DNA from: Nitrospira sp.
GTDB lineage: Bacteria; Nitrospirota; Nitrospiria; Nitrospirales; Nitrospiraceae
Length of the DNA stretch: 64,000 bases
Reading direction: 5' to 3'
Assembly: GCA_005116835.1 (NCBI GenBank)
Contig: SWDM01000016.1
Span: 1-64,000, forward strand
The position numbers were made by a program, and so were the translations under genes. Positions 20,513 to 60,320 of this stretch are shown here, in pieces. Position 1 is the first letter of the stretch. Every line of letters starts with the position of its first letter. Under the pieces are notes generated by a model that was not told the DNA's origin, ran no database searches, and worked only from the letters and a program-made list of their open reading frames with translations.

Positions 20513-20514
20513 GC

Positions 20515-21714: not shown

Positions 21715-21785
21715 ATCACTCCTGCATCGAAATGTGCGCTCGCCGAAAGAGATAGCCATGCCGCTCATTAATTCCTTATACAGGG

Positions 21786-23054: not shown

Positions 23055-23124
23055 GGGCTGCCTCCTTCGGGTCACGATTAACTTGTTCGATCGAGATCAA
23101 AGACGAAACCGGTATCGCACTGCG

Positions 23125-24603: not shown

Positions 24604-25230
24604 TTACTGCAGGATTCTTTTGGCCGTGCTGTTGCCTCTATCGGGCTTCCATTGATCAACAAGCTGTTTCGCGTTCATGATTTCAACTTGCGTCAATTTT
24701 TTCGAGAGGATGCCCCCCTGTCGACCGGCCTCTTGGTCACCCTGGGCGGCAGACAACTCAAGCCACATGTATGCCTGAAGTCTGTCAGGCCGTACCCCTT
24801 GCCCGCCCCCCGACAGTATTTTCCCCAGACTATGCTGGGCGGGGGAGAAACCCTTGTCCGCAGCAAGCCGCCACCACCGCACTGCTTCTGTATCGTCCTT
24901 CTGCACACCCGTCCCCTCCCAGTAATTGTCGCCGAGAGCATTCTGCGCGAACATGTCGCCTTGCAGCGCCGCGAGTCGGTACCACCGAACTGCCTCGGCC
25001 TTATCCTTGGGGACATCCCTGCCGTGATCATACGCCTGGGCTAACGCAAACTGCGCTTCAACATTTCCCCGCTCAGCCTGTATACGTAGCCGTTCAATTG
25101 GAAAGACCGCTCTGGCTGTCTGCGTGGCAAACTGAGTTGACGTGTCGTGCATGGTGGAAGGAGGCCTTGAACTGCCACAGGCGTTCAACAACACAAGCGA
25201 AGCCCAGGCAACTATCATCCGACTCCACAT
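24604..25230 (-). CDS. Sel1-repeat (TPR-like) lipoprotein
   Basis: This 208-residue protein begins at ATG 25230 (GGGGATAGGT directly upstream), and its signal ends L-L-N-A-C-G, a good lipobox. Three to four Sel1-like repeats follow. Their signature A-V-R-W-Y-R-L-A-A-L-Q-G-D and A-V-R-W-W-R-L-A-A-D-K-G is visible near residues 85 and 120, and the last repeat reads A-Y-M-W-L-E-L-S-A-A-Q-G. Sel1 repeats are protein-binding scaffolds. The gene follows the iron-sulphur flavoprotein by 19 bases on the same strand and may be co-transcribed. Confidence 0.8.
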   Translation of the reverse strand: MWSRMIVAWASLVLLNACGSSRPPSTMHDTSTQFATQTARAVFPIERLRIQAERGNVEAQFALAQAYDHGRDVPKDKAEAVRWYRLAALQGDMFAQNALGDNYWEGTGVQKDDTEAVRWWRLAADKGFSPAQHSLGKILSGGGQGVRPDRLQAYMWLELSAAQGDQEAGRQGGILSKKLTQVEIMNAKQLVDQWKPDRGNSTAKRILQ

Positions 25231-25249
25231 ACCTATCCCCTGTAATGGA

Positions 25250-26563
25250 TTACTTTGCCATCGCCGTGCCGTAATAGGTGTCGACGATGACACCGATCTC
25301 TTTCAGCATGGCAGTCGGGAGCGTGCCGCCCGCGCAGACGATCACGGCGTCGTTCTTCATAGTGATTTCTTTCCCCGCGTGACTCAGCGTCACATTGTCC
25401 GTCCCGATCTCCTTCACGTTGGCATCCACATACACCGTGATTCTTTTTTTCTCTACGCCCAGTTTAAGCAGTTGGCGATTCTTGGACTTCGGGCGGGTAA
25501 AAATTTCATCGCCGCGGCAGGAAATGGTGACCGTGGTGTCGCGTTCTGCGGCAATCGACAAGGCGGCTTCCGCTGCGCTATCTCCACCGCCCACCACCAG
25601 CACATGCAGCCCACGATATTGCTCCGCATCGATTAGGCTGTAGACAACCTTGGATTGCTCTTCCCCCGGCACGCCGAGCTTGCGGGGCGTACCGCGCCGG
25701 CCGATGGCAAGGAGCACGTTCTTCGCTTTATAATTATCCTTCGACGTCTTCACCAGGAAACCGCTTCCAGTTTTTACGATCGAATCCATGCGCTCCGAGA
25801 AATTGATCTTGATGTGATTCTCACGGGTAATCTTGCCCCAAAACTCCAGCAGCTCCTCTTTCGTAATTTCGTACCTATTGAACTTGCCGACAATGGGCAG
25901 CGTCATGGGCGCCGTCATGGCCAGTTTCCGGCGCGGGTAGTGAAAGATTGAACCACCGAGCGAGTCTTCCTGCTCGACCGTCACGAATTTCAGTCCGGAC
26001 TCCTTGGCCGCCAGCGACGCGGAGATACCGGCCGGCCCCGCGCCGACAATCACCACATCCAGCTCGTCCCCCTTCGCTTTGTTTTTCCTGATCGTCTCAA
26101 TCGCTCGTTTGCCTTGATCCACTCCCTTGCGGATCAATCCCATCCCTCCCAACTCCCCGGCAATAAAGATACCGGACACGTTGGTTTCGAAGGTCGGTTT
26201 GACTTGAGGGATATCGATCCCTCGTTTCTCCGTCCCGAACACCAGCTGAATGGCTTCCACTGGGCAGGCCGCCTCGCAAGCCCCATGACCGATACAGTGA
26301 TCGGGCTGCACGAGCGTCGCTTTCCCTCTAATGATCCCGAGCGCATGCTCCGGACAGGCTTTCACACAGGCGCTGGAGCCGATACACTTGTTCGTATCGA
26401 TCACCGGATGCAGGGTGAGAGGCTCAGGGATACTTTCCTTCTCTGTTTCCTTCAGACGGGCACGATAGTGAGTTTCCCGCTTATGATGACGGCGGTAATA
26501 CAGAGTCAACGCAAAAACCACCGGCAAGAGGTAGAGCATGGTGATGAGATATGATTGAGACAT
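25250..26563 (-). CDS. Membrane-anchored 2[4Fe-4S] ferredoxin/FAD pyridine-nucleotide oxidoreductase
   Basis: This 437-residue redox protein has one N-terminal membrane helix (YLITMLYLLPVVFALTLYY). A bacterial ferredoxin domain follows (C-I-G-S-S-A-C-V-K-A-C-P near residue 61 and C-I-G-H-G-A-C-E-A-A-C-P near 90), predicting two [4Fe-4S] clusters. Then comes a thioredoxin-reductase-like flavoprotein with G-A-G-P-A-G (FAD) near 173 and G-G-G-D-S-A-A-E (NAD(P)H) near 330. The redox CxxC of thioredoxin reductase is absent, so it more likely passes electrons between pyridine nucleotide, FAD and the clusters. GGAAGG precedes ATG 26563. It lies downstream of ccmI and the porin/cytochrome genes, suggesting a role in their electron chain. 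Confidence 0.85.
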   Translation of the reverse strand: MSQSYLITMLYLLPVVFALTLYYRRHHKRETHYRARLKETEKESIPEPLTLHPVIDTNKCIGSSACVKACPEHALGIIRGKATLVQPDHCIGHGACEAACPVEAIQLVFGTEKRGIDIPQVKPTFETNVSGIFIAGELGGMGLIRKGVDQGKRAIETIRKNKAKGDELDVVIVGAGPAGISASLAAKESGLKFVTVEQEDSLGGSIFHYPRRKLAMTAPMTLPIVGKFNRYEITKEELLEFWGKITRENHIKINFSERMDSIVKTGSGFLVKTSKDNYKAKNVLLAIGRRGTPRKLGVPGEEQSKVVYSLIDAEQYRGLHVLVVGGGDSAAEAALSIAAERDTTVTISCRGDEIFTRPKSKNRQLLKLGVEKKRITVYVDANVKEIGTDNVTLSHAGKEITMKNDAVIVCAGGTLPTAMLKEIGVIVDTYYGTAMAK

Positions 26564-26578
26564 TCGACCTTCCTATCG

Positions 26579-27856
26579 CTATGGAATTTCACGATCGATG
26601 ACGACGGTGACCCTGCTGTTACCAGGCTTCACCGGCTGACTCATTCCCTCCAGATCGCCACGTTGCGGCCTGGCCTGGCCGGACTTCGACAGACGCGCCA
26701 CAATCACCACCGATCCTGCGTCGGACAGTTTCCTGGATGGCATGGGGCTCGTTGAGTCATCAAGCCGGAACGTAAAGGGCAGATCCAGTTTCCTGGCCCG
26801 CACGATCGACACAGGCATAGGCGGGCCGTTGATCGCCCGCGCAAACACGAACAACGTATCCGTTGGGGCGCCGTTGCCAGCAAGATTCGGCGCCAGGTTC
26901 ACTGTCCCACTGATTGCAGTAGCCTGACCGCTAGGCTTTGCCGAAAAGGCGGCCAGACTGACCGCCTTGGCCATTGCCGGTTGTTCGCCGGCTAATCCTT
27001 TGGCTTCGGCGATATCCGAGAGCAGTTCTCGTCGGACGTCTCCTTCCGCATCTGGGGGGAGATGCGCGTCAGCTTGTTCCCAATACCGCGCTGCTTGCCT
27101 AAAGTCACTACGGTCGAATGCCACAGTCCCGGCTAACATCAGCGCTTTGACATGGTTCGGATCAATCTTAAGCGCCTGCTGAATCAAGACTTCCGGCTTC
27201 CCTGCCAGCTTGCGGCCATGCAGCATGCCGAGAGCATCGGCATAGTCGACAAGCAGCTGGGGGTCGTCAGGGATCAACTTCATCGCCCTCTCATACATCG
27301 GCATCGCGTCGGCATGCCGCCCGATTTCTACATACGAGCGAGCGAGAAGAGCCCACCCCACTCCGTAGTCTGGACTCTGCTCGAGTCGTTTTTTCAGCCG
27401 CTCGGAAAGCGCATCGAGCCCTTCGGATGTTTCGTGGGCATTGTCCAACCCGGCTCGTGCCGCTGATGAGGATACGGTGGGAAGTATGATCGCCTGCTGA
27501 TTACCCCACTCCAAGTACAGCAATCCGCTTACGACCGGAATGATGACCGCTATTGCCACTCCAACCGCTCGGTTGTTCACCGGCCACAATCGCGCCAGCG
27601 GGCCAGCCTCAGCCGGCCCAGTCTCGTCAAGCAATCGCCGTTCGAGTTCCCGCTTCGATTGTTCATATTGTTCATCGGTCAGCATGGTGCGCTTATGGTC
27701 CTGATCCAATTCGGCAAATTGCTGGCGATAGACCGACAGCGCCTCTTGACCTTCTTCATTCTTCGATAGCTCTTGGCGCTTGAACAGCGGCCGCAGGATC
27801 AGACCCATGACGAGCAACGTCATGATCCAAGCAATAAACCAAAATGCGAGGGTCAT
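26579..27856 (-). CDS. ccmI: c-type cytochrome biogenesis protein CcmI (TPR)
   Basis: This 425-residue protein presents apocytochrome c to the haem lyase. The start ATG 27856 is followed by a membrane helix (W-F-I-A-W-I-M-T-L-L-V-M-G-L-I-L) and a cytoplasmic helical hairpin with V-Y-R-Q-Q-F-A-E-L-D-Q-D and L-L-D-E-T, typical of CcmI. A second membrane helix (A-I-A-V-I-I-P-V-V-S-G-L-L-Y-L) precedes periplasmic TPR repeats (W-A-L-L-A-R-S-Y-V-E-I-G-R-H-A-D-A) and the C-terminal beta domain. It lies 15 bases before the ferredoxin/FAD gene. Placement beside genes for nearly fifty haem sites fits a maturation role; the other ccm genes are not in the window. Confidence 0.88.
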   Translation of the reverse strand: MTLAFWFIAWIMTLLVMGLILRPLFKRQELSKNEEGQEALSVYRQQFAELDQDHKRTMLTDEQYEQSKRELERRLLDETGPAEAGPLARLWPVNNRAVGVAIAVIIPVVSGLLYLEWGNQQAIILPTVSSSAARAGLDNAHETSEGLDALSERLKKRLEQSPDYGVGWALLARSYVEIGRHADAMPMYERAMKLIPDDPQLLVDYADALGMLHGRKLAGKPEVLIQQALKIDPNHVKALMLAGTVAFDRSDFRQAARYWEQADAHLPPDAEGDVRRELLSDIAEAKGLAGEQPAMAKAVSLAAFSAKPSGQATAISGTVNLAPNLAGNGAPTDTLFVFARAINGPPMPVSIVRARKLDLPFTFRLDDSTSPMPSRKLSDAGSVVIVARLSKSGQARPQRGDLEGMSQPVKPGNSRVTVVIDREIP

Positions 27857-27904
27857 GAATGTCCCGCCTCTCGTGGCATGTGAGCGAGACATGTATGACG
27901 TGCG

Positions 27905-27955
27905 CAACTCGAAGTTCTGAGCGCTGAGTTCTGAGTGCTGAGCTCGAAGCTCCGA
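27905..27955. repeat. 7-nt-phased repeat array (TGAGNNC)
   Basis: GAAGTTC, TGAGCGC, TGAGTTC, TGAGTGC, TGAGCTC and GAAGCTC follow each other in a perfect seven-base register between the porin and ccmI genes. A related stretch lies near 48000-48062. No function is evident. Confidence 0.6.
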
Positions 27956-28074: not shown

Positions 28075-30363
28075 CTAAGAGAAGTCCCATCGAAGACCGA
28101 AGAAAAAAAACTGCCTCGAGGTCGAGTCTTTTAATGTCGCGCTCTGTGTCAGCGTTTTCTCCAGCCCACCTGAGGCTTCGAGGGTCCAATTATCGAAAAA
28201 GCGATAATTTATTCGAGCCGTCGGGGTCACGCGATACAGATCGACGTCAAAACTGTCTTTCTGATGATAGAGCAGAACAAACGTGTCGAACTGCACATTT
28301 TGTCCGAGGCGAGCCAATGAATTGAGCGTGAGGGATTGTGCTCGGTATGCCTGGCTCGTAATGTAGCTGGCGTTTGCCACAAAGGTCATATTCTCAACCG
28401 GAAAATTCGTTCCAATCGCTTGCGCCGTATAGGTCCATATATTTCCAGTCCCAGGCAATGCTTGCAAGGAACAAGCGGCGTCGGTCGTCGCGTTCGGGTT
28501 GAGAAAGAGGGTGCTGCTGCCTGGCAGGATTACCAAGCAGTTTGTGGCCCCTGTGCCGGAAATTCGATTGAGACGGACGTCTCCACCGAGCTGCCAATCC
28601 TTGCTCACGGCATGAAGCACCCCGGCAAGAACCTGGTCGCTGGTCGCGGTTACAGCCTTCGCCTGTTCCCGCAAGAGACTTTCGTTCGTCGGATTGATGT
28701 TCTGAAGAGTGGCATTCGGAGTCCCGAAGAGCGCATTTGTCGTTTGCAAATAGGGCGTTCTTCGATGGTCCAGCAATACGGTATAGGTCGTCTTGTCGGT
28801 CACCCAGGTTCCGTTGAGCATCGCGACGTTAAGAACGTTGTACGACACGTCGTAGTCGATTAAACTGAACGCATTCTTCCCGTTTGACGCAAACCGCAAT
28901 TCTGTCCCTACTGCTCTGCGGTCCACTACGCCGTTGACCATCTGGTTGATGACGTACAGATTGGCGTTCCAGGCCTGCCCGATCGGACCGATATCCACAT
29001 TCGCCCCGTAAAAGTAGCGGCTCAAGTCCGCCCGAAAATTCCGAGGATCGTCCGGCACGTAGTTGGAACTCAAGCTGAATTGCCGAGGCTGACCTGCGAT
29101 AAGGTTCACATTCAGGAATTGAGGCACGGCGACGTAGCGTACCCAGGCTCCGTCGAAACGGAAATCCAGTACACCCCCTGTATTTCCAGGCTGTCGGCCG
29201 ACTCGGATGAAATATGAATCCTGACTCGCATGTTCGAAGTAGAGGGCTCTAAGCCTGCTGATATCTCGCCTTAGGTCTGTGGTGGCCAGGAAGTCGTGCG
29301 ACTGCGTGCCGCGCACAACGAATTTGTTGTCGTACTCGTCTTTCCGGTATCGTCCTGTTACGTCGAACGCCGACTGCAGCAAAGACTGGTCTTGGTTATG
29401 GCGGTTCGTGGTGCTATTCGCCACTTTGTCCGTCGTCGTTGTCTGGGAATATCCGCCATAATAGTACGTGTATGCGCTCCCGTAGACCCGCGTTTCATCG
29501 ATCTTCTTACTCGGCCTGCTGGCCTTGGATTGTGCAAATTGACCCGTAGTCTCCTCCAACGATGCCAACCGTTGACGTACCCTCGCCGCTTCTTCTCCCT
29601 CCGGGAAAAGCTTGAGGTAGAGCTCATATTCCGTTTTCGCTTTTGCATATTCCTTGTTCCGTTGCCTCGCCACTCCAACCCATTCCTGAGCCCCTCGCGA
29701 TTGCTTATTCGGCGGGAGATTGAGCAGTGCATTGAATATCTGCACTGCGCTCTCATGCTCTCCGACGTTCAGCGCCTTACGGCCCAGCTTCATTAGATCT
29801 TCAGCATAGGCCTCGACATTCATCCCGGGACCAAACGGCGGAATGTCGAACGACTGTTTCGGTCCCTTCTCTTCCAGCGATGGCGATGATGGGGTGTCAA
29901 TCTCTTGCGGAAGCGCCGGGCGATCTAACTTGACCGAAATTACAATCCGGCTGCTGCTTCTGATGTCCCGCTGGCTCACGCGAAACCGCACCGGTTTGGC
30001 AAATTGAATTGAGAGACCGTTTGTCCCTTGGTCGGGAAATGTAACGGAAAATTTCGGGATCAGGTCGCTGGGAGGCGATGTTGCTAACTCTCGCGGGAAT
30101 CTGCGCGAGCGATCCAGATCGGGGAAGTCGAGAAATATTCTAATGAGATCGCCTTGTTGGGAGGGGGTATGCCGTAAATACAGTGCCCGCGCATTGAAGA
30201 TAATATGGATCTCCGCAGTTGTCGGGGTTTCGACAATCTCAATGTGGTCAAGAACCTGCGCAGCAACCGAAGTCGGCGCTAGAAGGCCACATAGGGCAAA
30301 GACTCCGCACAGAAAGATTGCCCACGCCGCAAGGCGTAATTTCCCCAGATCAATTCTTGTCAA
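28075..30363 (-). CDS. Outer-membrane beta-barrel protein with AMIN-like and TPR N-terminal regions
   Basis: This 762-residue exported protein starts with TTG 30363 (GAGGAT upstream). The signal peptide is followed by an AMIN-like beta domain at about residues 38-150 (I-E-I-V-E-T-P-T-T-A-E-I-H-I-I-F and I-R-I-F-L-D-F-P-D). TPR-like helices follow at 185-265 (A-V-Q-I-F-N-A-L-L-N-L-P-P-N and Y-E-L-Y-L-K-L-F-P-E-G). From about 290 onward it is rich in alternating hydrophobic strands with many tyrosines and ends F-F-F-F-G-L-R-W-D-F-S, as beta barrels do. It lies downstream of the 25-haem cytochrome on the same strand. By analogy with porin-cytochrome complexes it could hold or serve that cytochrome, but it is not visibly homologous to MtrB. 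Confidence 0.72.
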   Translation of the reverse strand: MTRIDLGKLRLAAWAIFLCGVFALCGLLAPTSVAAQVLDHIEIVETPTTAEIHIIFNARALYLRHTPSQQGDLIRIFLDFPDLDRSRRFPRELATSPPSDLIPKFSVTFPDQGTNGLSIQFAKPVRFRVSQRDIRSSSRIVISVKLDRPALPQEIDTPSSPSLEEKGPKQSFDIPPFGPGMNVEAYAEDLMKLGRKALNVGEHESAVQIFNALLNLPPNKQSRGAQEWVGVARQRNKEYAKAKTEYELYLKLFPEGEEAARVRQRLASLEETTGQFAQSKASRPSKKIDETRVYGSAYTYYYGGYSQTTTTDKVANSTTNRHNQDQSLLQSAFDVTGRYRKDEYDNKFVVRGTQSHDFLATTDLRRDISRLRALYFEHASQDSYFIRVGRQPGNTGGVLDFRFDGAWVRYVAVPQFLNVNLIAGQPRQFSLSSNYVPDDPRNFRADLSRYFYGANVDIGPIGQAWNANLYVINQMVNGVVDRRAVGTELRFASNGKNAFSLIDYDVSYNVLNVAMLNGTWVTDKTTYTVLLDHRRTPYLQTTNALFGTPNATLQNINPTNESLLREQAKAVTATSDQVLAGVLHAVSKDWQLGGDVRLNRISGTGATNCLVILPGSSTLFLNPNATTDAACSLQALPGTGNIWTYTAQAIGTNFPVENMTFVANASYITSQAYRAQSLTLNSLARLGQNVQFDTFVLLYHQKDSFDVDLYRVTPTARINYRFFDNWTLEASGGLEKTLTQSATLKDSTSRQFFFFGLRWDFS

Positions 30364-30402
30364 AGAAATCCTCTGTAGATGGGAGGTTCGTTCAATCCAA
30401 CA

Positions 30403-30519
30403 CTAATCCGATGAATCCGTCGGCAAGCACATACACCGGAGACCGGCATGATCGTTGAGGAGAAGTAGCAGTAAGACAGCGCCCCTGGCCTGTGGCGTTT
30501 TCGTTCTCCAACCCATCAT
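30403..30519 (-). CDS. Possible 38-residue peptide between cytochrome and porin genes
   Basis: ATG 30519 (or 30516) is preceded by a near-perfect GGAGGG ribosome binding site. The frame encodes a basic N-terminus (W-R-T-K-T-P-Q-A-R-G), a short run of leucines and a tail with two cysteines (R-C-M-C). The leucine run is too short for a membrane helix. It sits 39 bases before the porin start, on the same strand. It may be a leader peptide or a small protein; I have no family match, and it could be chance sequence. Confidence 0.3.
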   Translation of the reverse strand: MMGWRTKTPQARGAVLLLLLLNDHAGLRCMCLPTDSSD

Positions 30520-30598
30520 TGATTCCCTCCTATTTCTTAAAGGGTTTGGTGGTGTGGCACCCGGAGGTGTCACAGGAAAGGGGTGTCCGATGGCTTCG

Positions 30599-32578
30599 TC
30601 AAAAACTGTTGCCGACTCTGTGGCAGCCAGAGTTGTCGCAAGAGTTTGGCGCATTTGAGTTTGGCCTAGGTCTAGTACTCGTATGGTCCGACGGTCTAGT
30701 ACCCTGCACGCCTAACCAATTCATGCCACGCTCATGACAGGTGTTACATTGCCCTGGCGTCGCCACCACCGAACTGTGGTATCTCGATCCGGCAAAGGCC
30801 GTTGTGGATCTGTGACAGGTCTCGCAGGCCGTGGAGACCGGGATGTGGTTTGCTGGTTTACCCAACGCCGTCGAGCCGTTATGGCAGGTCGCACAGCCCG
30901 TCGTAATCCCTGTATGACTGAATTGTGCGCCCGTAAAGGTCGTCGTCGATCGATGGCAGGTCTCACAGGACTGCGTCGTCGGTACGTGCGATGCTGCCTT
31001 GCCCCGCGCCGTCGTCCCGTTGTGGCAGGTCGCGCAGCCGTTCACGATCCCCGTATGATTAAATGCCGCCCCTGCAAATGACGTCGTGGATCGGTGGCAC
31101 GTCTCGCAGGCCTGTGTCGTCGGTACGTGCGATGCTGCCTTGCCCCGCGCCGTCGTCCCGTTGTGGCAGGTCGCGCACCCGCTCACGATCCCCGTATGAT
31201 TGAATGTCGCCCCCGCAAATGACGTCGTCGATCGATGGCAGGTCTCACAGGACTGCGTCGTCGGTACGTGCGATGCTGCCTTGCCCCGCGCCGTCGTCCC
31301 GTTGTGGCAGGTCGCGCAGCCGTTCACGATCCCCGTATGATTGAACGCCGCCCCCGTAAACGTCGTGGTGGACCGGTGGCACGTCTCACAGGCTTGCGTC
31401 GTCGGCACATGCGTGGCTGCCTTACCCCGCGCCGTCGTCCCGTTGTGGCAGGTCGCGCACCCGCTCACGATCCCCGTATGATTGAACGCCGCCCCTGTAA
31501 ACGTCGTGGTGGACCGGTGGCAGGTTTCGCAGCCCGCCGTCGTCGGCACATGCGTGGCTGCCTTACCCCGCGCCGTTGTTCCGTTGTGGCAGCTCGCGCA
31601 CCCCGCCACGATCCCCGTATGATTAAATGCCGCCCCCGTAAATGTCGTCGTCGATCGGTGGCAGGTCTCACAGGCCGCCGTCGTCGGCACATGCGATGCT
31701 GCCTTACCCCGCGCCGTCGTCCCGTTGTGGCAGGTCGCGCACCCGCTCACGATCCCCGTGTGGTTAAACGCCGCCCCTGTAAACGTCGTCGTCGACCGGT
31801 GGCAGGTTTCGCAGCCCGCCGTCGTCGGCACATGCGTGGCTGCCTTACCCCGCGCCGTCGTCCCGTTGTGACAGGTCGCGCAGCCGTTCACGATCCCCGC
31901 ATGGTTGAATCCACCACTGACAAGTAACCAGTTTGCTACACCAACCCGATGGCAGGAGTCGCAAGAAGCAGTTGTCAGAAGGTGACCGGACGACTTCCCC
32001 CTTGCCTGGACGCCGTTGTGGCAAGTTGCGCAGGTGCCCGGCACAACCCCTGTGTGTTTGAAAGCTGCCCCAGTCCAGCCAACCGTCCGATGGCAACTGT
32101 CGCAGCTCATGGTCGTTGGAATGTGTGTGCTGGGCTTGCCCTCTGCGGTACTTCGATTGTGGCATTTGGAGCAGGTTCCTGGAGCCACTCCGTTGTGTGT
32201 AAAAAACGCAGGGGTCCAACTCGTCGTCCGATGGCAGCTGCTGCAATTGACCGTGGTAGGAAGGTGATTCGCCGGCTTAAAGGTGGAAACGACTCGCCCG
32301 CCTGGTGAATGGCATTGCGCACACTGTGTCGGCGTTCCTCTGAAAATACCTTGCAGGTGGCACCGTTGACATTCAACCTGTGCATGGCCGCCACTGAGCG
32401 GGAAACCGGTCGCACTGTGATCGATTTCAATGTCTGTGCGGACTCGTCCTTGAGCATCGGCGGTATCCGGCATCAACAGTGTCGCGCCGCATACCGCGAG
32501 AAATCCGGCGACGATTGCCGAGGCAAAGAACTGAAGCCCGGTACGCCATATCGATTGACTCATGTTTGCACCTGTCAT
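30599..32578 (-). CDS. Multihaem c-type cytochrome, 24 CxxCH plus one Cx4CH motif
   Basis: This 659-residue exported cytochrome (signal peptide F-A-S-A-I-V-A-G-F-L-A-V-C-G-A-T-L-L) has 24 CxxCH haem sites and a final C-D-N-S-G-C-H (Cx4CH), so up to 25 haems. The central part is a tandem array of a 47-residue, two-haem unit (C-A-T-C-H-N-G-T-T-A-R-G-K and C-E-T-C-H-R-S) repeated about seven to eight times with few changes. Each unit also supplies extra histidines (F-N-H-T-G-I and S-H-V-P-T-T) able to act as second axial ligands. ATG 32578 has GGAG upstream; ATG 32563 (with AGGTG) is equally possible. No membrane anchor follows the signal. It is likely periplasmic or surface-located, acting as an electron conduit. 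Confidence 0.9.
   Translation of the reverse strand: MTGANMSQSIWRTGLQFFASAIVAGFLAVCGATLLMPDTADAQGRVRTDIEIDHSATGFPLSGGHAQVECQRCHLQGIFRGTPTQCAQCHSPGGRVVSTFKPANHLPTTVNCSSCHRTTSWTPAFFTHNGVAPGTCSKCHNRSTAEGKPSTHIPTTMSCDSCHRTVGWTGAAFKHTGVVPGTCATCHNGVQARGKSSGHLLTTASCDSCHRVGVANWLLVSGGFNHAGIVNGCATCHNGTTARGKAATHVPTTAGCETCHRSTTTFTGAAFNHTGIVSGCATCHNGTTARGKAASHVPTTAACETCHRSTTTFTGAAFNHTGIVAGCASCHNGTTARGKAATHVPTTAGCETCHRSTTTFTGAAFNHTGIVSGCATCHNGTTARGKAATHVPTTQACETCHRSTTTFTGAAFNHTGIVNGCATCHNGTTARGKAASHVPTTQSCETCHRSTTSFAGATFNHTGIVSGCATCHNGTTARGKAASHVPTTQACETCHRSTTSFAGAAFNHTGIVNGCATCHNGTTARGKAASHVPTTQSCETCHRSTTTFTGAQFSHTGITTGCATCHNGSTALGKPANHIPVSTACETCHRSTTAFAGSRYHSSVVATPGQCNTCHERGMNWLGVQGTRPSDHTSTRPRPNSNAPNSCDNSGCHRVGNSF
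30860..31915 (-). repeat. Tandem 141-bp repeats inside the cytochrome gene
   Basis: The block encoding the two-haem unit recurs every 141 bases (for example TTGTGGCAGGTCGCGCA near 31020, 31161, 31302, 31443 and so on). Copies differ mostly at silent or interchangeable codons, which points to recent amplification or gene conversion. Confidence 0.85.
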
Positions 32579-33011
32579 TGCAGCTCCATTGCACTTAGTG
32601 TTGCCGCTTATTACTTTCTTCACTCACTGGGAATTGAATCCCATTGTTGTTTCGTCGTGGGCGTTGTACAGGAATTCGCGGGAGTGCCATCCCGGTCGCG
32701 GTGGCATTACGCAAGAGGTATGCCTTGGGGGAGAAAACATCACAGGCATGAGGTTTCTGCGTGGAACGGAGGATCTCATGCGTAGACCTACCCATAGGAC
32801 AGAGGACTCATCCTGTACAAACGAGTAGGCCTGCACATACAGGCGCTACAGATGAAACTCCTTCGCCTTAGGTCGTAAAGATCCAAAGCCCTTCAAGTTA
32901 GTGTGCTGAAAAGCAGGCCCAGGAGTTGCTCTATTGTAGCCGCGACCTTCGGCGCATTGGTTACAACCAAATCAACACACCAACCTTCACTACACATTAA
33001 GGTGAATCACC
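32579..33011. promoter_or_regulatory. Divergent promoter region between the two multihaem cytochrome loci
   Basis: These roughly 430 non-coding bases separate the minus-strand cytochrome/porin genes from the plus-strand cytochrome-b/cytochrome-c genes, so both transcripts should start here. I could not recognise a specific operator or sigma-54 type promoter. A short frame at 32595-32836 looks non-coding. Confidence 0.4.
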
Positions 33012-33941
33012 ATGCCTGTCGTTGAACCTCTCGCTCAAGTCAGAGTTAGAACGACCGCCGTACCCCGTCCGGTGGCAAAACCAGTCTCAAGGCCGGATGG
33101 CACCGCGTCCTCCGCCCCTTCATCTTCTTTCTTAAATCGACTCCTTGTCATCACAATCATGGGCCTCTGTCTGTGGGTGGGCTACAAGGTGGCGACAGGG
33201 AATTATTACACCCCACGCTCAAACTTCGGCTTTTACCTGGGAGTTGTCGGCTCAACGATGATGCTCTTGATGCTGGCCTACCCTCTGCGCAAACACGTGA
33301 GCTTCATGCAACGATGGGGTGCCCTCAAAAATTGGTTCCGCCTCCATATGATCATGGGAATCGTCGGTCCAACCCTCGTGCTGTTCCATTCCACCTTTCA
33401 TCTCCGATCCGCCAACGCGACGATTGCCCTCTTCAGCATGTTAGGGGTCGTGATCAGCGGCATCATCGGCCGTTTTGTCTACACCAAGATCCACTATGGT
33501 CTCTATGGCAGGCGCGCCACGCTGGGAAAAATTCGGGAGGAGCTCGCAGGCCTTTCCAGCGAGGCAAAATCACGGCTGCACTTTGCGCCTCGCGTGGAAG
33601 AATGGCTCCAATCGTTCGAACGTGACTCGATGCAACTTGATCGCACCTTCACCTCACACCTCTTCAGCCCTCTGACGATCGGATTGAAACGGAGCATTTT
33701 GACTTTTCGTTGCAAGCGTGAACTGCAGAAAATTCTGAGAACCGAGCGGCATCCGGACATCCGTGGGGGGGCGCCGGAAGCGATCCAATTGGCATCGTCG
33801 TATTTACGAGAGTGCGAGCGCGTCGCCCAATTCAGCACCTACGAGCGCCTCTTCTCCTTATGGCACGTTCTCCATATTCCTTTGATCTACGTACTGGCCG
33901 CTTGTACGATCTTTCATATCGTAGCTGCCTATATGTACTGA
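33012..33941 (+). CDS. Cytochrome-b-like integral membrane protein
   Basis: This 309-residue membrane protein has a proline-rich cytoplasmic N-terminus and about five helices: near 45-63 (LLVITIMGLCLWVGYKVA), 75-94, 113-134, 138-160 and 285-307. Histidines stand at helix positions suited to haem b or quinol chemistry: R-L-H-M-I-M-G-I-V-G-P-T-L-V-L-F-H-S-T-F-H and W-H-V-L-H-I-P plus F-H-I-V-A-A-Y. A soluble loop of about 110 residues separates the fourth and fifth helices. AAGGTG precedes ATG 33012. The next gene, the 24-haem cytochrome, begins 18 bases after its stop, so the pair could form a membrane b/multihaem c complex exchanging electrons with the quinone pool. The subfamily is not identified. 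Confidence 0.75.
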   Translation: MPVVEPLAQVRVRTTAVPRPVAKPVSRPDGTASSAPSSSFLNRLLVITIMGLCLWVGYKVATGNYYTPRSNFGFYLGVVGSTMMLLMLAYPLRKHVSFMQRWGALKNWFRLHMIMGIVGPTLVLFHSTFHLRSANATIALFSMLGVVISGIIGRFVYTKIHYGLYGRRATLGKIREELAGLSSEAKSRLHFAPRVEEWLQSFERDSMQLDRTFTSHLFSPLTIGLKRSILTFRCKRELQKILRTERHPDIRGGAPEAIQLASSYLRECERVAQFSTYERLFSLWHVLHIPLIYVLAACTIFHIVAAYMY

Positions 33942-33958
33942 CTCTCAATCAACCTATC

Positions 33959-35749
33959 GTGCTGACCTTGCGCCATTACAGCCTCCTCACCCTCCTGGGC
34001 ATCTTGATGCTCATGGCCGCGCCGGCCGGGGCTCAGACTGTCGAGTCGGCATTGATGCCGGGGCAGGTAATCGAAGGCCACGCGAAATGGGAAGAGGATT
34101 GCACGAAATGCCACAAGCGTTTCGACAAGGCGGCACAGAATACGCTCTGCCAAGATTGTCACAAAGACATTCGTGCGGACGTCGAGCAGAAGCGAGGATC
34201 GCATGGGCGATTCAAGGAGCAGCGCGAATGCAAGGAATGCCACACAGAGCACAAGGGCCGACCGGAGAATATTGCACCGATCACGGAACTGACTTTCAGT
34301 CATGAACGGACGGACTTCCCACTCAAAGGCGCTCATGCCGACACGAAAAAAATCGAGTGCAAGGCTTGCCACAAGCCCAAGGTGAAGTATCGTGAGGCGC
34401 CGTCAGATTGTTACAGCTGCCATAAGAAAGACGACAAACATAAAGGCAAGCTGGGAAACGCCTGCGTCGATTGTCATACGGATCGGACTTGGAAGGAGGT
34501 CCGCTTCGACCATGACAAGACACGGTATAAGCTGCGCAACAAGCACGTCGAAGTCCCCTGCATCGGCTGCCATGCGAACGATCGTTATAAAGACACTCCG
34601 ATGGACTGTTATTCCTGCCACAAGAAAGACGACAAACATCGAGGGCAAGAGGGAACGCAATGCGAAGAGTGCCACAACGACCGGTCATGGAAGAAGTCGC
34701 CATTCGACCATAACAAGTCGCGCTTCCCCTTGATGGGCAAACACGAAAAGGTGGAGTGCACGAAATGTCATCTCACGCCGGCATTCAAAGACGCGCCGAC
34801 GGACTGTTATTCCTGTCACAAAAAAGACGACAAGCACAAAGGGGCCTATGGAGAGAAGTGCGAGACGTGCCACGGCGCGAGCGATTGGAAAACCATCACG
34901 TTCGACCACGACTTACATTCCCTGTACCCGCTGCGGGGACGGCACATCGCGACAAAGTGCGAGTCTTGCCACAAGGGACACCTGTACAAGGAGAAGACCC
35001 CGGCGGACTGCCATGCCTGCCACAAGAAAGACGACAAGCACAAGGGACGCTTTGCCGAGAAGTGCGAACGGTGCCACACCGAACGGGATTGGAAAGTATC
35101 CCTCTTTGAGCACGATCACGATACGGCCTATCCCCTGAGGGGAAAGCATCGGACGGCAAAGTGCGAGTCCTGCCATACAGGATACCTATATAAGGACAAG
35201 ACACCGGTCGCCTGCTTTGCCTGCCATAAGAAGGACGACAAGCATAAGGGCCGCTTTACCGAGAAGTGCGAACGCTGCCACACCGAACGGGATTGGAAGG
35301 TATCCCTCTTTGAGCACGATCACGATACGGCCTATCCACTGCAAGGAAAGCACAGAACCACCGGCTGCGAGAGTTGCCATAAGGGGCAGCTCTATCAAGA
35401 CAAGACGCCCACGGACTGCTATTCCTGCCATAAGAAGGACGATATGCACCTGCGCAGGCTGGGCACGGAGTGCCAGAGCTGCCACAGCATCAGAGACTGG
35501 AAGCTTTGGGACTTCGATCACGACAAGCGCACCAGCTTCAAACTCGACGGTGGGCACAAAGGGCTCGATTGTTATGCCTGCCACACCGAACGTATGGACA
35601 AAAAGGTCGCGTCATCGTCCTCCTGTGTCGGTTGTCATAAGAAGGATGACAAGCATGAGGGAAGTTTCGGCCCACAGTGCGACCGGTGTCACGAAACGAC
35701 GAACTGGAAGACCATCAAGCCTGGCACCAAAATCTTTCGCAGTAAGTAA
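33959..35749 (+). CDS. Multihaem c-type cytochrome with 24 CxxCH motifs
   Basis: This exported protein of about 596 residues has a signal peptide ending A-A-P-A-G-A-Q and exactly 24 CxxCH haem-binding sites by my count. The dominant unit, C-Y-S-C-H-K-K-D-D-K-H-K-G, recurs about eight times with two further haems between copies, giving a three-haem repeat of roughly 65 residues. It is strongly lysine-rich, unlike the threonine/glycine-rich cytochrome on the other strand, so the two are not recent duplicates. GTG 33959 is the first start that leaves a proper signal peptide; longer forms overlap the cytochrome-b-like gene. It is probably periplasmic, receiving electrons from or passing them to the membrane protein encoded just upstream. 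Confidence 0.9.
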   Translation: MLTLRHYSLLTLLGILMLMAAPAGAQTVESALMPGQVIEGHAKWEEDCTKCHKRFDKAAQNTLCQDCHKDIRADVEQKRGSHGRFKEQRECKECHTEHKGRPENIAPITELTFSHERTDFPLKGAHADTKKIECKACHKPKVKYREAPSDCYSCHKKDDKHKGKLGNACVDCHTDRTWKEVRFDHDKTRYKLRNKHVEVPCIGCHANDRYKDTPMDCYSCHKKDDKHRGQEGTQCEECHNDRSWKKSPFDHNKSRFPLMGKHEKVECTKCHLTPAFKDAPTDCYSCHKKDDKHKGAYGEKCETCHGASDWKTITFDHDLHSLYPLRGRHIATKCESCHKGHLYKEKTPADCHACHKKDDKHKGRFAEKCERCHTERDWKVSLFEHDHDTAYPLRGKHRTAKCESCHTGYLYKDKTPVACFACHKKDDKHKGRFTEKCERCHTERDWKVSLFEHDHDTAYPLQGKHRTTGCESCHKGQLYQDKTPTDCYSCHKKDDMHLRRLGTECQSCHSIRDWKLWDFDHDKRTSFKLDGGHKGLDCYACHTERMDKKVASSSSCVGCHKKDDKHEGSFGPQCDRCHETTNWKTIKPGTKIFRSK

Positions 35750-35788
35750 CCGTCGCCGGCTGTTTGAACGTTCCACAGGAAAGGCGCT

Positions 35789-37375
35789 ATGGAATACCGA
35801 CGCGATATCTCATTTACACTCAAGCTCCTTGCCCTCGGGCTTGTCCTCTTTGTCGGGTACCAAGGATGGTTGAAACCGACCTATTTGAGTCCGGGGCCCG
35901 CATCACGGCAGCCTTTAGACAGTCCCCCGGTACAGCCGGTCCCCGACTTCACGTTACCCGGAACACCAGACAATCCACCCTGGGACGTTCCGCAAACCAG
36001 GCTGATGAGCCTCGGACGAGCGCCCTTAGAAGCGCTCGATCTCATTCGTGACGACGTGGAACGGGGAAACTACAGGGAAGCAGAACGCCGGCTCAGAACC
36101 CTTTCCCGCAAACAGCTGGGGAAAGCCCGGGCCAACCAATTCGTCGCGGCGCTCTGGAACAATCTCGGTGTGCAACAGGAAAAGTTCGGCGGGAGCGCTC
36201 TGTCTGTCAAAGCTTTTAAAAAAGCCGTAGAATCCGACCCCGCCAGCCCACTTGCCCATATGAACTTGACGCAAGCCTACTGGGAACTTCGCGATCCGTC
36301 GATGACGCCTCAATTCCTCGACAGAGTCATTCGGCTGAACCCCGCCGACCCGTTCCCGCATCTTGCGCTGGCTGAATTACTATTGGAGAAGGGGGATAGG
36401 ACATCAGCAAGAGCCCATCTCAACCTCGCGCAGGCCCAAGCCCCATATGACCTCCATCTCCAATCCTATCGCGCGACACTGGTTGCACGGGCAGGCACAG
36501 AAAACCAGGCACAACGCCAAACAGTCGCACTCGCCCCCTCAGACCCATCAATAGCTATAAGCACCAGATCCTCCTCAGACATCCGTCAAGTCCGCATACC
36601 GTCCCCTCCAATGCCACCCGCTAATCCACCGGCCCCCTCCATTGTTACGCAAGAAGAACTGCAACCGAAACCATTTGCGCCACGAGACACCACTCATTTT
36701 GTCGTTCAGTTCGACGGGCCTGACGACCAAGTCACATGGGTACGCATCCGCGCCATGCTTGAATATGCCTACGAAGAGATCCCTCAGAGGTTCGGACATG
36801 TGCCTGCCGGACCCATAACAGTCGTGCTGCATACAGGGCAGAAATTTTCCGGCCAGGGGGGAGTCCCAGATTGGGCCGACAAGTTGTTCGATTCCAGATC
36901 CGGCTCGATCCACCTCCCCACCCAAGGCGCGCTCGATGATCTTGCGTTGTTCAGCCGCGTAGCCCGCCATCAGTTCGTCCATGCGCTCTTTCATGAGCAA
37001 GCCACAAATGGAAGCGCCGCTCCTCCAACATGGCTGGTGGAGGGGCTAGCCATCCATCTGACAGAAGACCCCTGGCCTGACATGGAGGACTCACGAGAAC
37101 AGAACTCTCCGCTCTTGCCGTTGTCTTCTCTTCACGGATCGTGGGCCCAGCTTCCGACAACCTCTGTGCCAGCCGCGTACCTCACGGCCACTGCCGCCAC
37201 CCAACACCTCATCGAACGGTATAGCATGTACAGTGTCCGCCAACTGATGAACCAACTCATGGCCGGACAGACCCTTGAGGCAGCCATGCAACAGAAGTTG
37301 TCCCTATCGTACGAGCAGTTTCAGCTCCAGTGGGCGAAAATCCATAAGCCCCATGTGGGTGAGCGCAGTTCATGA
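35789..37375 (+). CDS. TPR protein with peptidase-MA-like (gluzincin) domain, catalytic Glu replaced
   Basis: This 528-residue protein is anchored by an N-terminal helix (F-T-L-K-L-L-A-L-G-L-V-L-F-V-G-Y). TPR repeats span about 85-230 (A-L-W-N-N-L-G-V-Q-Q-E-K-F and A-H-M-N-L-T-Q-A-Y-W-E-L). A C-terminal domain resembling peptidase MA family proteins carries R-H-Q-F-V-H-A-L-F-H near residue 394 and W-L-V-E-G-L-A near 418. The expected HExxH is HQxxH here, so the general base is lost and proteolysis is doubtful. AGGAAAGG precedes ATG 35789. It follows the 24-haem cytochrome by 39 bases, so it may help assemble or hold that complex. Confidence 0.8.
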   Translation: MEYRRDISFTLKLLALGLVLFVGYQGWLKPTYLSPGPASRQPLDSPPVQPVPDFTLPGTPDNPPWDVPQTRLMSLGRAPLEALDLIRDDVERGNYREAERRLRTLSRKQLGKARANQFVAALWNNLGVQQEKFGGSALSVKAFKKAVESDPASPLAHMNLTQAYWELRDPSMTPQFLDRVIRLNPADPFPHLALAELLLEKGDRTSARAHLNLAQAQAPYDLHLQSYRATLVARAGTENQAQRQTVALAPSDPSIAISTRSSSDIRQVRIPSPPMPPANPPAPSIVTQEELQPKPFAPRDTTHFVVQFDGPDDQVTWVRIRAMLEYAYEEIPQRFGHVPAGPITVVLHTGQKFSGQGGVPDWADKLFDSRSGSIHLPTQGALDDLALFSRVARHQFVHALFHEQATNGSAAPPTWLVEGLAIHLTEDPWPDMEDSREQNSPLLPLSSLHGSWAQLPTTSVPAAYLTATAATQHLIERYSMYSVRQLMNQLMAGQTLEAAMQQKLSLSYEQFQLQWAKIHKPHVGERSS

Positions 37376-39149: not shown

Positions 39150-40313
39150 CTAGAAGGCCGGAGTGGGTTCAGAGTCTGACGGTGGCACTTGATCGGGCAC
39201 ATCGGCGAGGCTCGCGCAGTGGGCATGAAAGTCGTCGAGCACCTGCTCCAGATCAGCGACTGAAGAGACTCGGAACATGTTGGCTCGAAGCGAAGCAGCG
39301 TGGGGGAATCCTTTACAGTACCAGCCAAGATGTTTACGCATCCGCCGAAACTGGCCCTGCCCACAGGCCGCTTCGAATCGTCTGGCATGATCGAGGAGCA
39401 TGTCAAACCGGGCCTCAAGCGACGGCATCAGCGGTTCTGACACCTCCTCCGCCCCCTGCTGCAGCGCGAGCCTCGCCCCGTCCTTTTGCTGAAAAAACCA
39501 GGGGGCTCCGAGCGCGGCCCGTCCGACTAACACGCCGTCTACTCCTGTATCCCGCACACGGCGAACGACATCGCGATAACTATGAATGTCTCCATTGCCG
39601 AACAGCAAAGTCCCGCTTCCCTGCGCGATTTTGACCGCCCGGGCAATAGCGGTCCAATCCGCTTCTCCTCGATACATTTGTTGCAGGGTACGGCCATGTA
39701 GAGAAATGACAGTCGGCTGTTCCTTCAGGAGCTGTTCGATCCAGCCTTCGACGACTACTACATCGTAGCCAAGGCGTGTCTTGACAGACAGAGGGATCGT
39801 TCGCCGGATCGGAAGACGGGCATCCAGACGCTGTTCGTTCATACGATGGATCGCCGCCACTCGTCCGGGCTTGAGATTCGCCCCTTCAAGAGTTTGACCG
39901 GCAGCCCAATCGGCGATCCCCTGTCTGGTAGCCCGCATGATGGCCTGAGCCACGTCCGGCGTTCGAATCAGCCCTGCGCCAGACCCGGATGAAGCCACAC
40001 TCCGCGAGGGGCAGCCCATATTGATGTCCAACCCGTCAAAACCCAACTCACAGACAGCATGGGCTGCTTGATAAAAGAGGTCAGGATCTTTCCCATAAAG
40101 CTGCGCGACAACCGGCCGTTCAGCCTCGTGATAAATGAGGGAGTCCAACAGAAACTCCGGCCCCCGACAGACGTCATGCACATGCGTGAATTCCGTGAAG
40201 GAGACATCCGGCTTCCCCTGCATAGCCACGGTGTGGCGAAATGTCGCATCTGTCACCCCATCCATCGGCGCCATCCCGATCACTGGTCTGGCGAGTGATT
40301 GCCAGAAACTCAT
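39150..40313 (-). CDS. dus: tRNA-dihydrouridine synthase (Dus family)
   Basis: This 387-residue FMN enzyme reduces uridines to dihydrouridine in tRNA D-loops. The FMN-binding start A-P-M-D-G-V-T-D-A-T-F-R is near residue 15, N-M-G-C-P-S-R-S-V with the catalytic cysteine near 108, V-K-T-R-L-G near 190, L-H-G-R-T-L-Q-Q-M-Y near 220, and G-N-G-D-I-H-S near 255. ATG 40313 overlaps the stop of the upstream DUF692-like gene by four bases. The TAG stop at 39150-39152 lies inside the CTAG target duplication of the MITE-like element, so the reading frame is unaffected by the insertion. Confidence 0.92.
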   Translation of the reverse strand: MSFWQSLARPVIGMAPMDGVTDATFRHTVAMQGKPDVSFTEFTHVHDVCRGPEFLLDSLIYHEAERPVVAQLYGKDPDLFYQAAHAVCELGFDGLDINMGCPSRSVASSGSGAGLIRTPDVAQAIMRATRQGIADWAAGQTLEGANLKPGRVAAIHRMNEQRLDARLPIRRTIPLSVKTRLGYDVVVVEGWIEQLLKEQPTVISLHGRTLQQMYRGEADWTAIARAVKIAQGSGTLLFGNGDIHSYRDVVRRVRDTGVDGVLVGRAALGAPWFFQQKDGARLALQQGAEEVSEPLMPSLEARFDMLLDHARRFEAACGQGQFRRMRKHLGWYCKGFPHAASLRANMFRVSSVADLEQVLDDFHAHCASLADVPDQVPPSDSEPTPAF

Positions 40314-41800
40314 CTGGTACGCTCCATCTCCATCACCGGAGTCTCCACTTCGTTTGCCTGGGCATAGGCCTGGCGTAACATGTCGCCTTCTTGCTCGCTG
40401 CACACATGCGCGTCCGGCGCCAACTCCCTCACAAATTCGAGGAACCGTTCGATCTTGAGGAGGAAAAAATCATACGACTGTGTGAGCGGGCGCGGCGAGC
40501 GAAACCAGAAGGTGACGAACGTTGATAGGTTGATGCCCCGCTCCGCCAAGATCCGGCAGGTTTGAGGAAACATCTCGGCAAGATCCCCTCCCCAGTGGAG
40601 AATCTCATACGGCATATAGGAGGTGCTGTACCGTCTGACACCGGTTGTGTCCCCGGCTGCTTCCTCCCATTCCAAGCCTGTCATGGGGGTTTGTCCTGAA
40701 ATGATTCGCGCATAACGCGCATAGTCATCACGCAACTGCTGCCGATCAGACTGGCACACCGGCCCCTGAACCGACATTGAACAAGGTATCAGACCGATCG
40801 ATTGTTCTACGTCCATTCCTCTCGCCATCGTCTGCTGAACGGAAATAGAGAAACGCCGAACAGCCTCTGCATATTCATTCACAATCGTCTTGACCGGTTT
40901 GGTATCCACTTCCAGCGCTACAGCCCGGAGGCTGGAGAGGTTCGGATGGGACAACACCTGCTCAAGCATCGTAAAGAGGATCGACGGAATCGGGGCTGCA
41001 TGGGCGTCGATCCATTCAGGAAGCCCCTCTCCCTCTTTTAGCGCACCAGCCGACTCATGGCAGGCCAACCCCGCCACGTGGATTTGGACGACCCGCTCCA
41101 GAGGAAATTCATCGAGGAATTCTCTGACGAATTGTTCAAGGGATATCCGTCGGCAGGCGCCGGTATAGCGATAGACCGTCCAGAGGTGCCCGATATCCAG
41201 CACGAGACCACAAGGCACCAACTCTGTCACGAGCCTGAAAAAATGGGGAATCGGTATCGTGCCGGCGGAAAAATATGTAAGCGGCGGCATTTCCAAAAGG
41301 AAAAGCGGCGCCATCACACCGGCGCCACGACATTGCCGATCTATCGCCCCCTGAACCGTCGCGATATTGTCCGCGACCACCTCCGCGCTCAACTTCGTAT
41401 ACAGTGGAGGGACATAGGTGCCGAATGAATAACCTGCCATCTGCTTCATTGCGCATTCATGGTTCAACCAGAGGCTCTGTATGCGGTTGAGTTGCGCGAC
41501 TATCTCGCCAACATTCTCCTGAAAGAACGGAGACGCTTGAACGTCCGGCTGGGTGATCCACAGACCCTCCCCGTGGTATGACAGCGGTATGTCAGGAATA
41601 GCCTGCCGAACCGATACCAATGCCGTTGTTGTCGCCTTGAAAACCTCGAAGTAGCCGGGCTGGAGTCCTCGCTCCCTGAGCGCATTGACCAATTCGAATA
41701 GATCGGGAGAATAGACATCGACCGACAAACCCATGCCCAGTGGCGGGATGCTCCTGAGGCGGCGCTGAAAGTCCCGTTGAACGAGATCTGGGTCAACCAT
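40310..41800 (-). CDS. DUF692-like TIM-barrel protein with an additional C-terminal domain
   Basis: This 496-residue protein starts at ATG 41800 (GGGGGAA upstream). The N-terminal 300 residues follow the DUF692 pattern of iron-dependent RiPP-modifying enzymes (MbnB/TglH group): metal-ligand candidates H in L-S-Y-H-G-E-G-L-W, N-H in L-W-L-N-H-E-C-A, D-I-G-H in V-L-D-I-G-H-L, and H in V-V-Q-I-H-V-A-G-L. The usual L-L-E-N reads L-L-E-M-P here. The last ~170 residues form a separate domain (R-Y-A-R-I-I, E-I-L-H-W-G-G-D-L, Y-D-F-F-L-L-K-I-E-R-F) that I do not recognise; it might play the part of the partner protein that DUF692 enzymes use. No short precursor-peptide gene was found beside it. The gene is coupled to dus. 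Confidence 0.7.
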   Translation of the reverse strand: MVDPDLVQRDFQRRLRSIPPLGMGLSVDVYSPDLFELVNALRERGLQPGYFEVFKATTTALVSVRQAIPDIPLSYHGEGLWITQPDVQASPFFQENVGEIVAQLNRIQSLWLNHECAMKQMAGYSFGTYVPPLYTKLSAEVVADNIATVQGAIDRQCRGAGVMAPLFLLEMPPLTYFSAGTIPIPHFFRLVTELVPCGLVLDIGHLWTVYRYTGACRRISLEQFVREFLDEFPLERVVQIHVAGLACHESAGALKEGEGLPEWIDAHAAPIPSILFTMLEQVLSHPNLSSLRAVALEVDTKPVKTIVNEYAEAVRRFSISVQQTMARGMDVEQSIGLIPCSMSVQGPVCQSDRQQLRDDYARYARIISGQTPMTGLEWEEAAGDTTGVRRYSTSYMPYEILHWGGDLAEMFPQTCRILAERGINLSTFVTFWFRSPRPLTQSYDFFLLKIERFLEFVRELAPDAHVCSEQEGDMLRQAYAQANEVETPVMEMERTR

Positions 41801-41976
41801 CGATTCCCCCTTGTGCGGCTCTATCAATTGGCCTAGTCTATTCGCTGAACCCCTTGTTTGACAAGGGAAGCCCCTGTCACAGACCAGGGGGGCCCGTCTG
41901 CTATACTTGGCTTACGTCGCCAGGGGCAGAATCCTCACGAGTCGTGCAGGCGAAAATCGGGGGAAGTTTCGAGCCC

Positions 41977-60025: not shown

Positions 60026-60320
60026 GATGCAGCTCCTTGCCATGCAAGATGGCGATGTATTGCGTCCGGGCGCGGACCGTCAGCATCGAAGTAGCGAAGC
60101 ATAGCGGTTACGATTGCGCTAATGCCGCTTAGCTGTGCGGGAATATTCTGATGGTCAATGAAGAGGAAATGGAACATCGAAGCTGTGACAGGATCATTCC
60201 AGCGATGAGTCCCCGCCCTGTCGTGTCGGCGCAGATCAGGCTGCAAGAACCGCATGTATGCAGACCCTCGTGGTGGTTCTGAACAGGGAGGTAGGAACGA
60301 GAATACTTATATATTTATTA

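Follow-up and report, generated by a model that had tools for sequence, protein, structure and literature searches.

The stretch of DNA considered here—the 'window'—comprises the first 64,000 nucleotides (64 kb) of contig SWDM01000016.1, from a Nitrospira genome of 3.94 Mb (GenBank assembly GCA_005116835.1). Near its middle lie two divergent groups of genes that appear to specify a trans-envelope electron conduit of the kind termed putative porin-cytochrome complex 3 (PCC3; He et al. 2017, PMC5566968), together with an iron-sulfur flavoprotein that is a near-obligate companion of such complexes. On the minus strand, reading outward from the divide, are a multihaem cytochrome predicted to be extracellular (30599–32623), an outer-membrane beta-barrel (28075–30363), the cytochrome c maturation TPR protein CcmI (26579–27907), and an anchored Fe-S/FAD oxidoreductase that we call FdFAD (25250–26563). 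On the plus strand are an inner-membrane protein (IMP; 33012–33941), predicted to carry two haems b, a second cytochrome with 24 haems, predicted to be periplasmic (33959–35749), and a TPR protein whose C-terminal domain is Peptidase_MA-like (35789–37375). The two groups are separated by 388 bp (32624–33011) in which no sigma-70-like promoter was found, a result that speaks neither for nor against their being controlled together.

Each cytochrome gene contains 24 CXXCH motifs in one open reading frame; because all other frames of the window contain from none to three, this accumulation is not due to chance. A preliminary description of this DNA had counted 24 haems in the plus-strand cytochrome, correctly, and 25 in the minus-strand one, which is true only if a CX4CH motif (CDNSGCH) is included with the rest. 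With 674 residues for 24 haems (28 per haem) in the outer cytochrome and some 596 for 24 (25 per haem) in the periplasmic one, both fall within the range of 22–39 found for PCC3. The frame of the periplasmic cytochrome is open from 33812, the start first listed for it, and overlaps the IMP gene from there; the true start is likely the GTG at 33959, which is followed by a signal peptide.

The two cytochromes are built in different ways. The outer one consists of 47-aa units with two haems apiece, encoded in 141-bp repeats of 87% similarity, and the periplasmic one of approximately eight triheme units of around 67 aa (66–69 aa each). Across loci, periplasmic haem counts are 21 (12 loci), 24 (50 loci), 27 (four loci) and 33 (one locus), with a single incomplete example of 20; outer counts range from 13 to 70. 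A fixed inner length and a variable outer one fit an inner wire that spans the periplasm, an arrangement already proposed for PCC3 (PMC10734462). The quantization of this wire in steps of three haems appears, judging by the open literature, to be new. A search of the host genome with a haem-repeat DNA pattern returned nothing, not even the window's own two genes, the pattern being too strict. Many short-read contigs end inside the outer cytochrome gene, and in one genome (G051) this gene is split at the repeats between two contigs (L036 and L169), both of them much longer. Since assemblies break here, PCC3 is easily missed, or found in pieces, in metagenome-assembled genomes (MAGs).

The barrel protein was modelled with AlphaFold2 from 32 homologues (mean pLDDT 77). 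The model comprises an N-terminal domain of eight strands (residues 38–145), TPR-like helices (183–279), and 22 long strands (290–761), and Foldseek pairs it with outer-membrane barrels from a number of families, at E-values of 1e-8 to 1e-11 and low TM-scores. As modelled, then, the protein is a barrel, though one of no particular known family. Its homologues share a conserved C-terminal end of the GxRWDF type. The barrel had been described as having an AMIN/TPR front end: the TPR segment has weak sequence support, and TPR proteins were all that a profile search of the PDB returned, while AMIN has no Pfam match and the modelled N-domain is consistent with it.

The IMP contains 309 aa and two histidine pairs, H112/H126 and H288/H302, in the contexts WFRLH...H126 and WHVLH...H302, with an SGIIG motif (SG149xxG) between them. 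These are the features that He et al. (2017, PMC5566968) give for the IMP of PCC3, a protein of approximately 300 aa with SGXXG and two WX3HX13H motifs. They are invariant in all aligned Nitrospira homologues, and of 96 homologues gathered from every source, 95 have the full signature; the IMP is accordingly predicted to bind two haems b. In an unrooted tree, Nitrospirota IMPs form one fully supported group. A profile search of the PDB with the IMP produced no matches. Open reading frames of 736–782 aa in other Nitrospirota, suspected of being IMP–FdFAD fusions, owe their length to a low-complexity N-terminal extension, and FdFAD is separate and divergent in these genomes; in one family (f10), two genomes have a long extension of this sort. 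Short IMP-like matches of some 205 aa in other Nitrospira (L021–L033) belong to a different module. They adjoin cytochromes of 3–7 haems, mostly five, and look like a smaller relative of the IMP–cytochrome pair.

Proteins homologous to these four components—barrel, both cytochromes and IMP—make up PCC3, and the block in the window appears from its sequence to be a system of this type, not the undescribed porin-cytochrome system that the preliminary description supposed. He et al. (2017, PMC5566968) listed PCC3 in Alpha-, Beta- and Gammaproteobacteria only, and named Uliginosibacterium gangwonense DSM 18521 as a carrier. The window's barrel is 33% identical to the PCC3 porin of that strain over 628 aa (E 6e-92), and 31% identical to a Gallionella sp. 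homologue (E 1e-97); the IMP is 41% identical to its Uliginosibacterium counterpart (E 4e-66), the outer cytochrome 56% and the periplasmic one 48%. Both cytochromes match their counterparts at E 0.0, and the cross-matches between outer and periplasmic cytochrome are far poorer. When an alignment of IMPs was used to scan 84,980 species genomes, it reached the same strain as well as Gallionella, Thiobacillus, Rhodoferax, Emcibacter, a Nitrospinaceae MAG and a Rokubacteria MAG. Two of the contigs with PCC3 loci (L089 and L100) come from MAGs labelled Klebsiella pneumoniae and Bordetella parapertussis, labels that are probably wrong.

In content, the Nitrospira block and proteobacterial PCC3 agree closely: a homologous barrel and outer cytochrome, a periplasmic cytochrome of 21–27 haems, an IMP of some 300 aa with its motifs, repeat-rich cytochromes with few residues per haem, and clustered genes. 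They differ in arrangement. Outside Nitrospira, the typical order is FdFAD on one strand and, on the other, IMP, a 24- or 21-haem cytochrome, the outer cytochrome, the barrel and often CcmI; in Nitrospira, the outer cytochrome and barrel diverge from the IMP and periplasmic cytochrome, a TPR/peptidase-like gene peculiar to Nitrospira is added, and in the window CcmI, FdFAD and a Sel1-repeat gene lie downstream of the barrel.

Resemblances to other conduits are more distant. MtrCAB, MtoAB and PioAB also combine a porin with multihaem cytochromes across the outer membrane, but their cytochrome subunits are decahaem and their porins have approximately 26–28 strands, compared with 24 and 24–25 haems and 22 modelled strands here; the models for DmsE/MtrA and OmcA/MtrC (TIGR03508 and TIGR03507) match below their cut-offs. 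OmbB-OmaB-OmcB of Geobacter follows the same logic of porin, periplasmic cytochrome and outer cytochrome, but with an octahaem OmaB and a dodecahaem OmcB, 8 + 12 haems rather than 24 + 24–25. The conduit had already been judged distinct from both kinds, and these figures bear that out. PCC4, also from He et al. (2017), has an IMP with the same motifs and, in some clusters, an Fe-S protein, but it has three periplasmic cytochromes of 4, 5 and 10 haems and no outer cytochrome, and the IMPs of PCC3 and PCC4 are not homologous overall (PMC5566968).

What we did not find in published accounts is the flavoprotein. FdFAD begins with a hydrophobic stretch and basic residues (Arg, His and Lys), continues with a two-cluster ferredoxin (Pfam Fer4), and ends with an FAD-NAD(P) domain of the kind found in thioredoxin reductase (TrxR) and certain ferredoxin-NADP reductases (Pfam Pyr_redox_3, with NCBIfam support); its relatives of known structure in the PDB are TrxR-type ferredoxin-NADP reductases and Bdr/YpdA. 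By the positive-inside rule, the hydrophobic stretch and the basic residues that follow it suggest a protein anchored in the membrane with its soluble part in the cytoplasm. The anchored ferredoxin/FAD oxidoreductase of the preliminary description is real, as is CcmI (TIGR03142, 99 bits, above cut-off; Ig_CycH and TPR_CcmH_CycH), though both lie, at 25250–27907, outside the interval 28075–37375 to which they had been assigned.

FdFAD has six invariant cysteines, all of them in Fe-S motifs. In all 49 sequences compared, the second motif reads CxxHxxCxxxCP, with histidine in place of the second cysteine; in the first, the corresponding position is serine in 40 (CxxSxxCxxxCP in the window) and cysteine in nine. 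If ligands are arranged as they are in two-[4Fe-4S] ferredoxins, one cluster would be Cys3-His and the other either Cys3-Ser or Cys4. Because it has no invariant cysteine beyond these motifs, and because its relatives are of the ferredoxin-NADP reductase type, FdFAD does not appear to be built for disulfide exchange.

The association of FdFAD with the IMP is striking. Among 118 Nitrospiraceae genomes, FdFAD occurs in 17 of the 18 that have a true IMP and in 3 of the 100 that do not (p 1e-16); of the four exceptions, three are cut by contig ends (G060, G106 and G117) and in the other (G071) FdFAD is present as broken fragments. Among 232 genomes from the class of Uliginosibacterium, the figures are 26 of 27 and 1 of 205 (p 4e-32), with an FdFAD fragment beside the IMP in one exception and FdFAD on a 3.5-kb contig in the other; both genomes with two IMPs carry two FdFADs. 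FdFAD is found, too, in 21 of 22 further PCC3 genomes, including some in which it does not lie within 10 kb of the IMP, and, among other Nitrospirota, in 12 of the 15 that have an IMP. Where the two are paired, 22 of 28 start less than 3 kb apart, and 21 of those 22 are on opposite strands. Pairwise distances between IMPs parallel those between FdFADs (r 0.89, Mantel p 5e-4), to which shared phylogeny contributes; such a correlation is expected of partners, but of common descent as well. FdFAD is, in short, a near-obligate fifth component of PCC3, and the preliminary description's inclusion of the flavoprotein in the conduit was a sound one. The terms FAD, flavo- and ferredoxin are absent from the text of He et al. 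(2017, PMC5566968), FdFAD goes unmentioned in those passages of later papers that deal with PCC3, and we found no prior report of a PCC3 flavoprotein, or of PCC3 in Nitrospira, in the open-licence literature. As far as that literature shows, the partnership and the conserved His-for-Cys motif are new. The broken FdFAD of genome G071, which lacks an IMP, consists of two incomplete stretches (47% and 53% identity) interleaved with a partial CcmI copy near ccm genes (L172:4611–6495), and is apparently what is left of a lost PCC3 block.

FdFAD might instead act with CcmI in cytochrome maturation, keeping the thiols of apocytochromes, or haem, in reduced form; it would then mark heavy production of cytochromes rather than electron entry. 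It does adjoin CcmI in Nitrospira, and in some relatives it is some 13 kb away from the IMP, behind a complete ccm operon that follows the barrel (ABC protein, CcmB, a CcmC-type protein, CcmE, CcmF, a redoxin and CcmI). The lack of conserved cysteines outside the Fe-S motifs speaks against this role, however; nitrifiers without PCC3 need c-type cytochromes too, yet 97 of the 100 IMP-less Nitrospiraceae manage without FdFAD, and in Proteobacteria it is the IMP, rather than CcmI, that FdFAD consistently adjoins. We think this role improbable.

The arrangement that seems best to fit is a PCC3-type conduit of comammox Nitrospira in which FdFAD, as a fifth component, connects the IMP to NAD(P)H, with export the favoured direction; we put its probability at roughly 0.64. 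The 22-strand barrel would hold the junction between the periplasm-spanning 24-haem cytochrome and the secreted outer cytochrome of variable length; the IMP, with its four histidines and two predicted haems b, would move electrons across the inner membrane; and FdFAD, on the cytoplasmic face, would pass them between NAD(P)H and the IMP. CcmI—the whole ccm operon, in related Nitrospira—could support maturation of both cytochromes. The sequences themselves show homology of the genes, their linkage and co-occurrence, and their motifs; where the proteins sit, whether they form a complex, what their redox partners are, and the direction and substrate of the flow are inferred. FdFAD and IMP would then resemble an NADPH oxidase or ferric reductase split over two genes: there, too, two HX13H pairs (predicted, here, for two haems b) are combined with a cytoplasmic NAD(P)H-FAD module, although in PCC3 the module is a separate gene with a TrxR-type ferredoxin-NADP reductase fold and a two-cluster ferredoxin. 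In NADPH oxidases and ferric reductases, an NAD(P)H-flavin module and a di-haem b membrane protein carry electrons out of the cell, a movement that follows the membrane potential.

He et al. (2017, PMC5566968) modelled the flow in the opposite sense: electrons would be taken from a donor outside the cell, for instance Fe(II), Mn(II) or reduced minerals, and pass through the cytochromes to the IMP, and from there to the quinone pool; FdFAD would then be an accessory, fed perhaps by reverse electron flow. The histidine spacing of the IMP is indeed like that of quinone-active cytochromes b, and PCC3 is frequent in iron oxidizers such as Sideroxydans (PMC10734462). But Sideroxydans ES-1 has two PCC3 clusters (Slit_0867-0870 and Slit_1446-1449), and both are down-regulated on Fe(II) (PMC8788666); PCC3 proteins of ES-1 are also low to middling on magnetite. 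Nor does the import model give FdFAD any place, despite a co-occurrence that is nearly one to one. We regard import as unlikely. Because PCC3 of ES-1 falls on Fe(II), and because NADPH oxidases and ferric reductases work outward, we favour export with moderate confidence: electrons would leave NADPH for an extracellular acceptor.

Several observations weigh against this preference. In Sideroxydans CL21, the IMP of one PCC3 copy rises along with the ability to oxidize iron, and the spending of NADPH would be costly for a nitrifier. The comparison with NADPH oxidases and ferric reductases rests on histidine spacing, because a fold search of the PDB with the IMP model found no significant match—for which reason we dropped any claim to a structural family—and in Pfam the IMP leaves PF01794 (Ferric_reduct) unmatched and reaches PF01292 below the cut-off. 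Three Nitrospirota genomes with weaker IMPs have no FdFAD; among the most divergent members, it is thus no absolute requirement. And no experiment in the literature consulted demonstrates electron transfer by any PCC3, whose function later papers still call unverified (PMC12442390).

A more specific proposal can be ventured, which we offer tentatively and hold rather less probable than not: that PCC3 is an NADPH-powered exporter and not a quinone-linked metal oxidase, that FdFAD, with its unusual Cys3-His cluster, and the di-haem b IMP make up a split unit resembling NADPH oxidase and feed a fixed periplasmic and a variable surface wire, and that clade B comammox and some canonical Nitrospira use it to dump electrons, from formate for example, when oxygen is short. 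Formate dehydrogenase is present in most canonical and clade B comammox Nitrospira genomes (review PMC6311188); that formate is the low-potential source for PCC3 is speculation. PCC3 cytochromes are among the most haem-rich proteins known, and the complex is listed as a candidate iron oxidase. A near-obligate flavoprotein partner of the NAD(P)H type changes the working model: it predicts that electrons enter or leave the conduit at a defined point in the cytoplasm, that one cluster has distinctive spectroscopy, and that the flow has a testable direction.

The host carries amoA, and belongs to the same genus as a MAG with the label Rifle clade B (G100, contig L065) and as CG24E (G037, L054), which PMC6311188 calls clade B comammox. 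A predicted trans-envelope conduit is thereby placed in comammox Nitrospira; going by the open literature, its presence in Nitrospira, comammox included, and the divergent layout are both new. Approximately one sixth of the sampled Nitrospiraceae genomes have the block, in the same split order. It is unevenly distributed. Within the window's genus, 8 of the 11 genomes with ammonia monooxygenase (AMO) have PCC3, if the CcmI-FdFAD remnant in G060 is accepted as a locus (7 of 11 if not), compared with 1 of 16 in g6, the second genus with AMO (p 6e-4, or 2e-3 without G060), a gap that might reflect an ecological difference between comammox clades. AMO is present in 8 of the 18 IMP genomes (p 0.02), a weak link, and AMO-less Nitrospira carry PCC3 also; the idea that PCC3 is a component of nitrification or ammonia oxidation was set aside.

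These distributions bear, too, on whether the conduit reaches the outer membrane at all. The cytochromes could instead store electrons for nitrification within the periplasm, and the barrel could be an exporter or porin that has nothing to do with them, given that the predicted locations rest on signal peptides and the barrel model, and that an ammonia oxidizer has large electron fluxes in its periplasm. Yet the genes for the barrel, the IMP and the two cytochromes remain clustered in both Nitrospirota and Pseudomonadota, mostly in organisms that do not nitrify—the joint conservation that the preliminary description had proposed to check—and the block occurs in only one of the 16 AMO genomes of g6. 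We consider this reading very improbable.

Other genes accompany these components. CcmI adjoins many proteobacterial PCC3 loci as well; in the host, the only CcmF of the genome is on another contig, and CcmI alone has been retained here. The TPR protein at 35789–37375, recognized as such beforehand and confirmed by Pfam, has in addition a weak Peptidase_MA-like match, and was seen only in Nitrospira PCC3 loci; its HExxH motif is kept in other lineages and reads HQxxH in the window's clade, which suggests that catalysis has been lost. Next to FdFAD is a Sel1-repeat, lipoprotein-like gene (24604–25293, minus strand; Pfam Sel1, E 1e-29), found in the same place in other Nitrospira. A Sel1/ankyrin gene adjoins FdFAD in other Nitrospirota and in Alphaproteobacteria, and follows it in the PCC3 loci of family f10 (L174–L177).

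Beyond Sel1, the surroundings vary. In the window, a set of genes for heavy-metal RND efflux is found there (17369–23075, minus strand), consisting of an AcrB-type pump of 1047 aa, a CusB-like adaptor and a TolC-like protein. Comammox genome G060 has in this place a protein of some 850 aa with a multicopper-oxidase domain according to Pfam (L167:3816–6371), and G051 has a gene of similar size, probably its equivalent (L169:7555–10092). On the far side of the block, a protein with an MbnB/TglH/ChrH domain, of the kind that modifies precursors of ribosomally synthesized and post-translationally modified peptides, is encoded at 40310–41827 (minus strand) and is kept near the block in the window's clade. 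Farther on, a single open reading frame of 2887 aa occupies 51380–60043, also on the minus strand.

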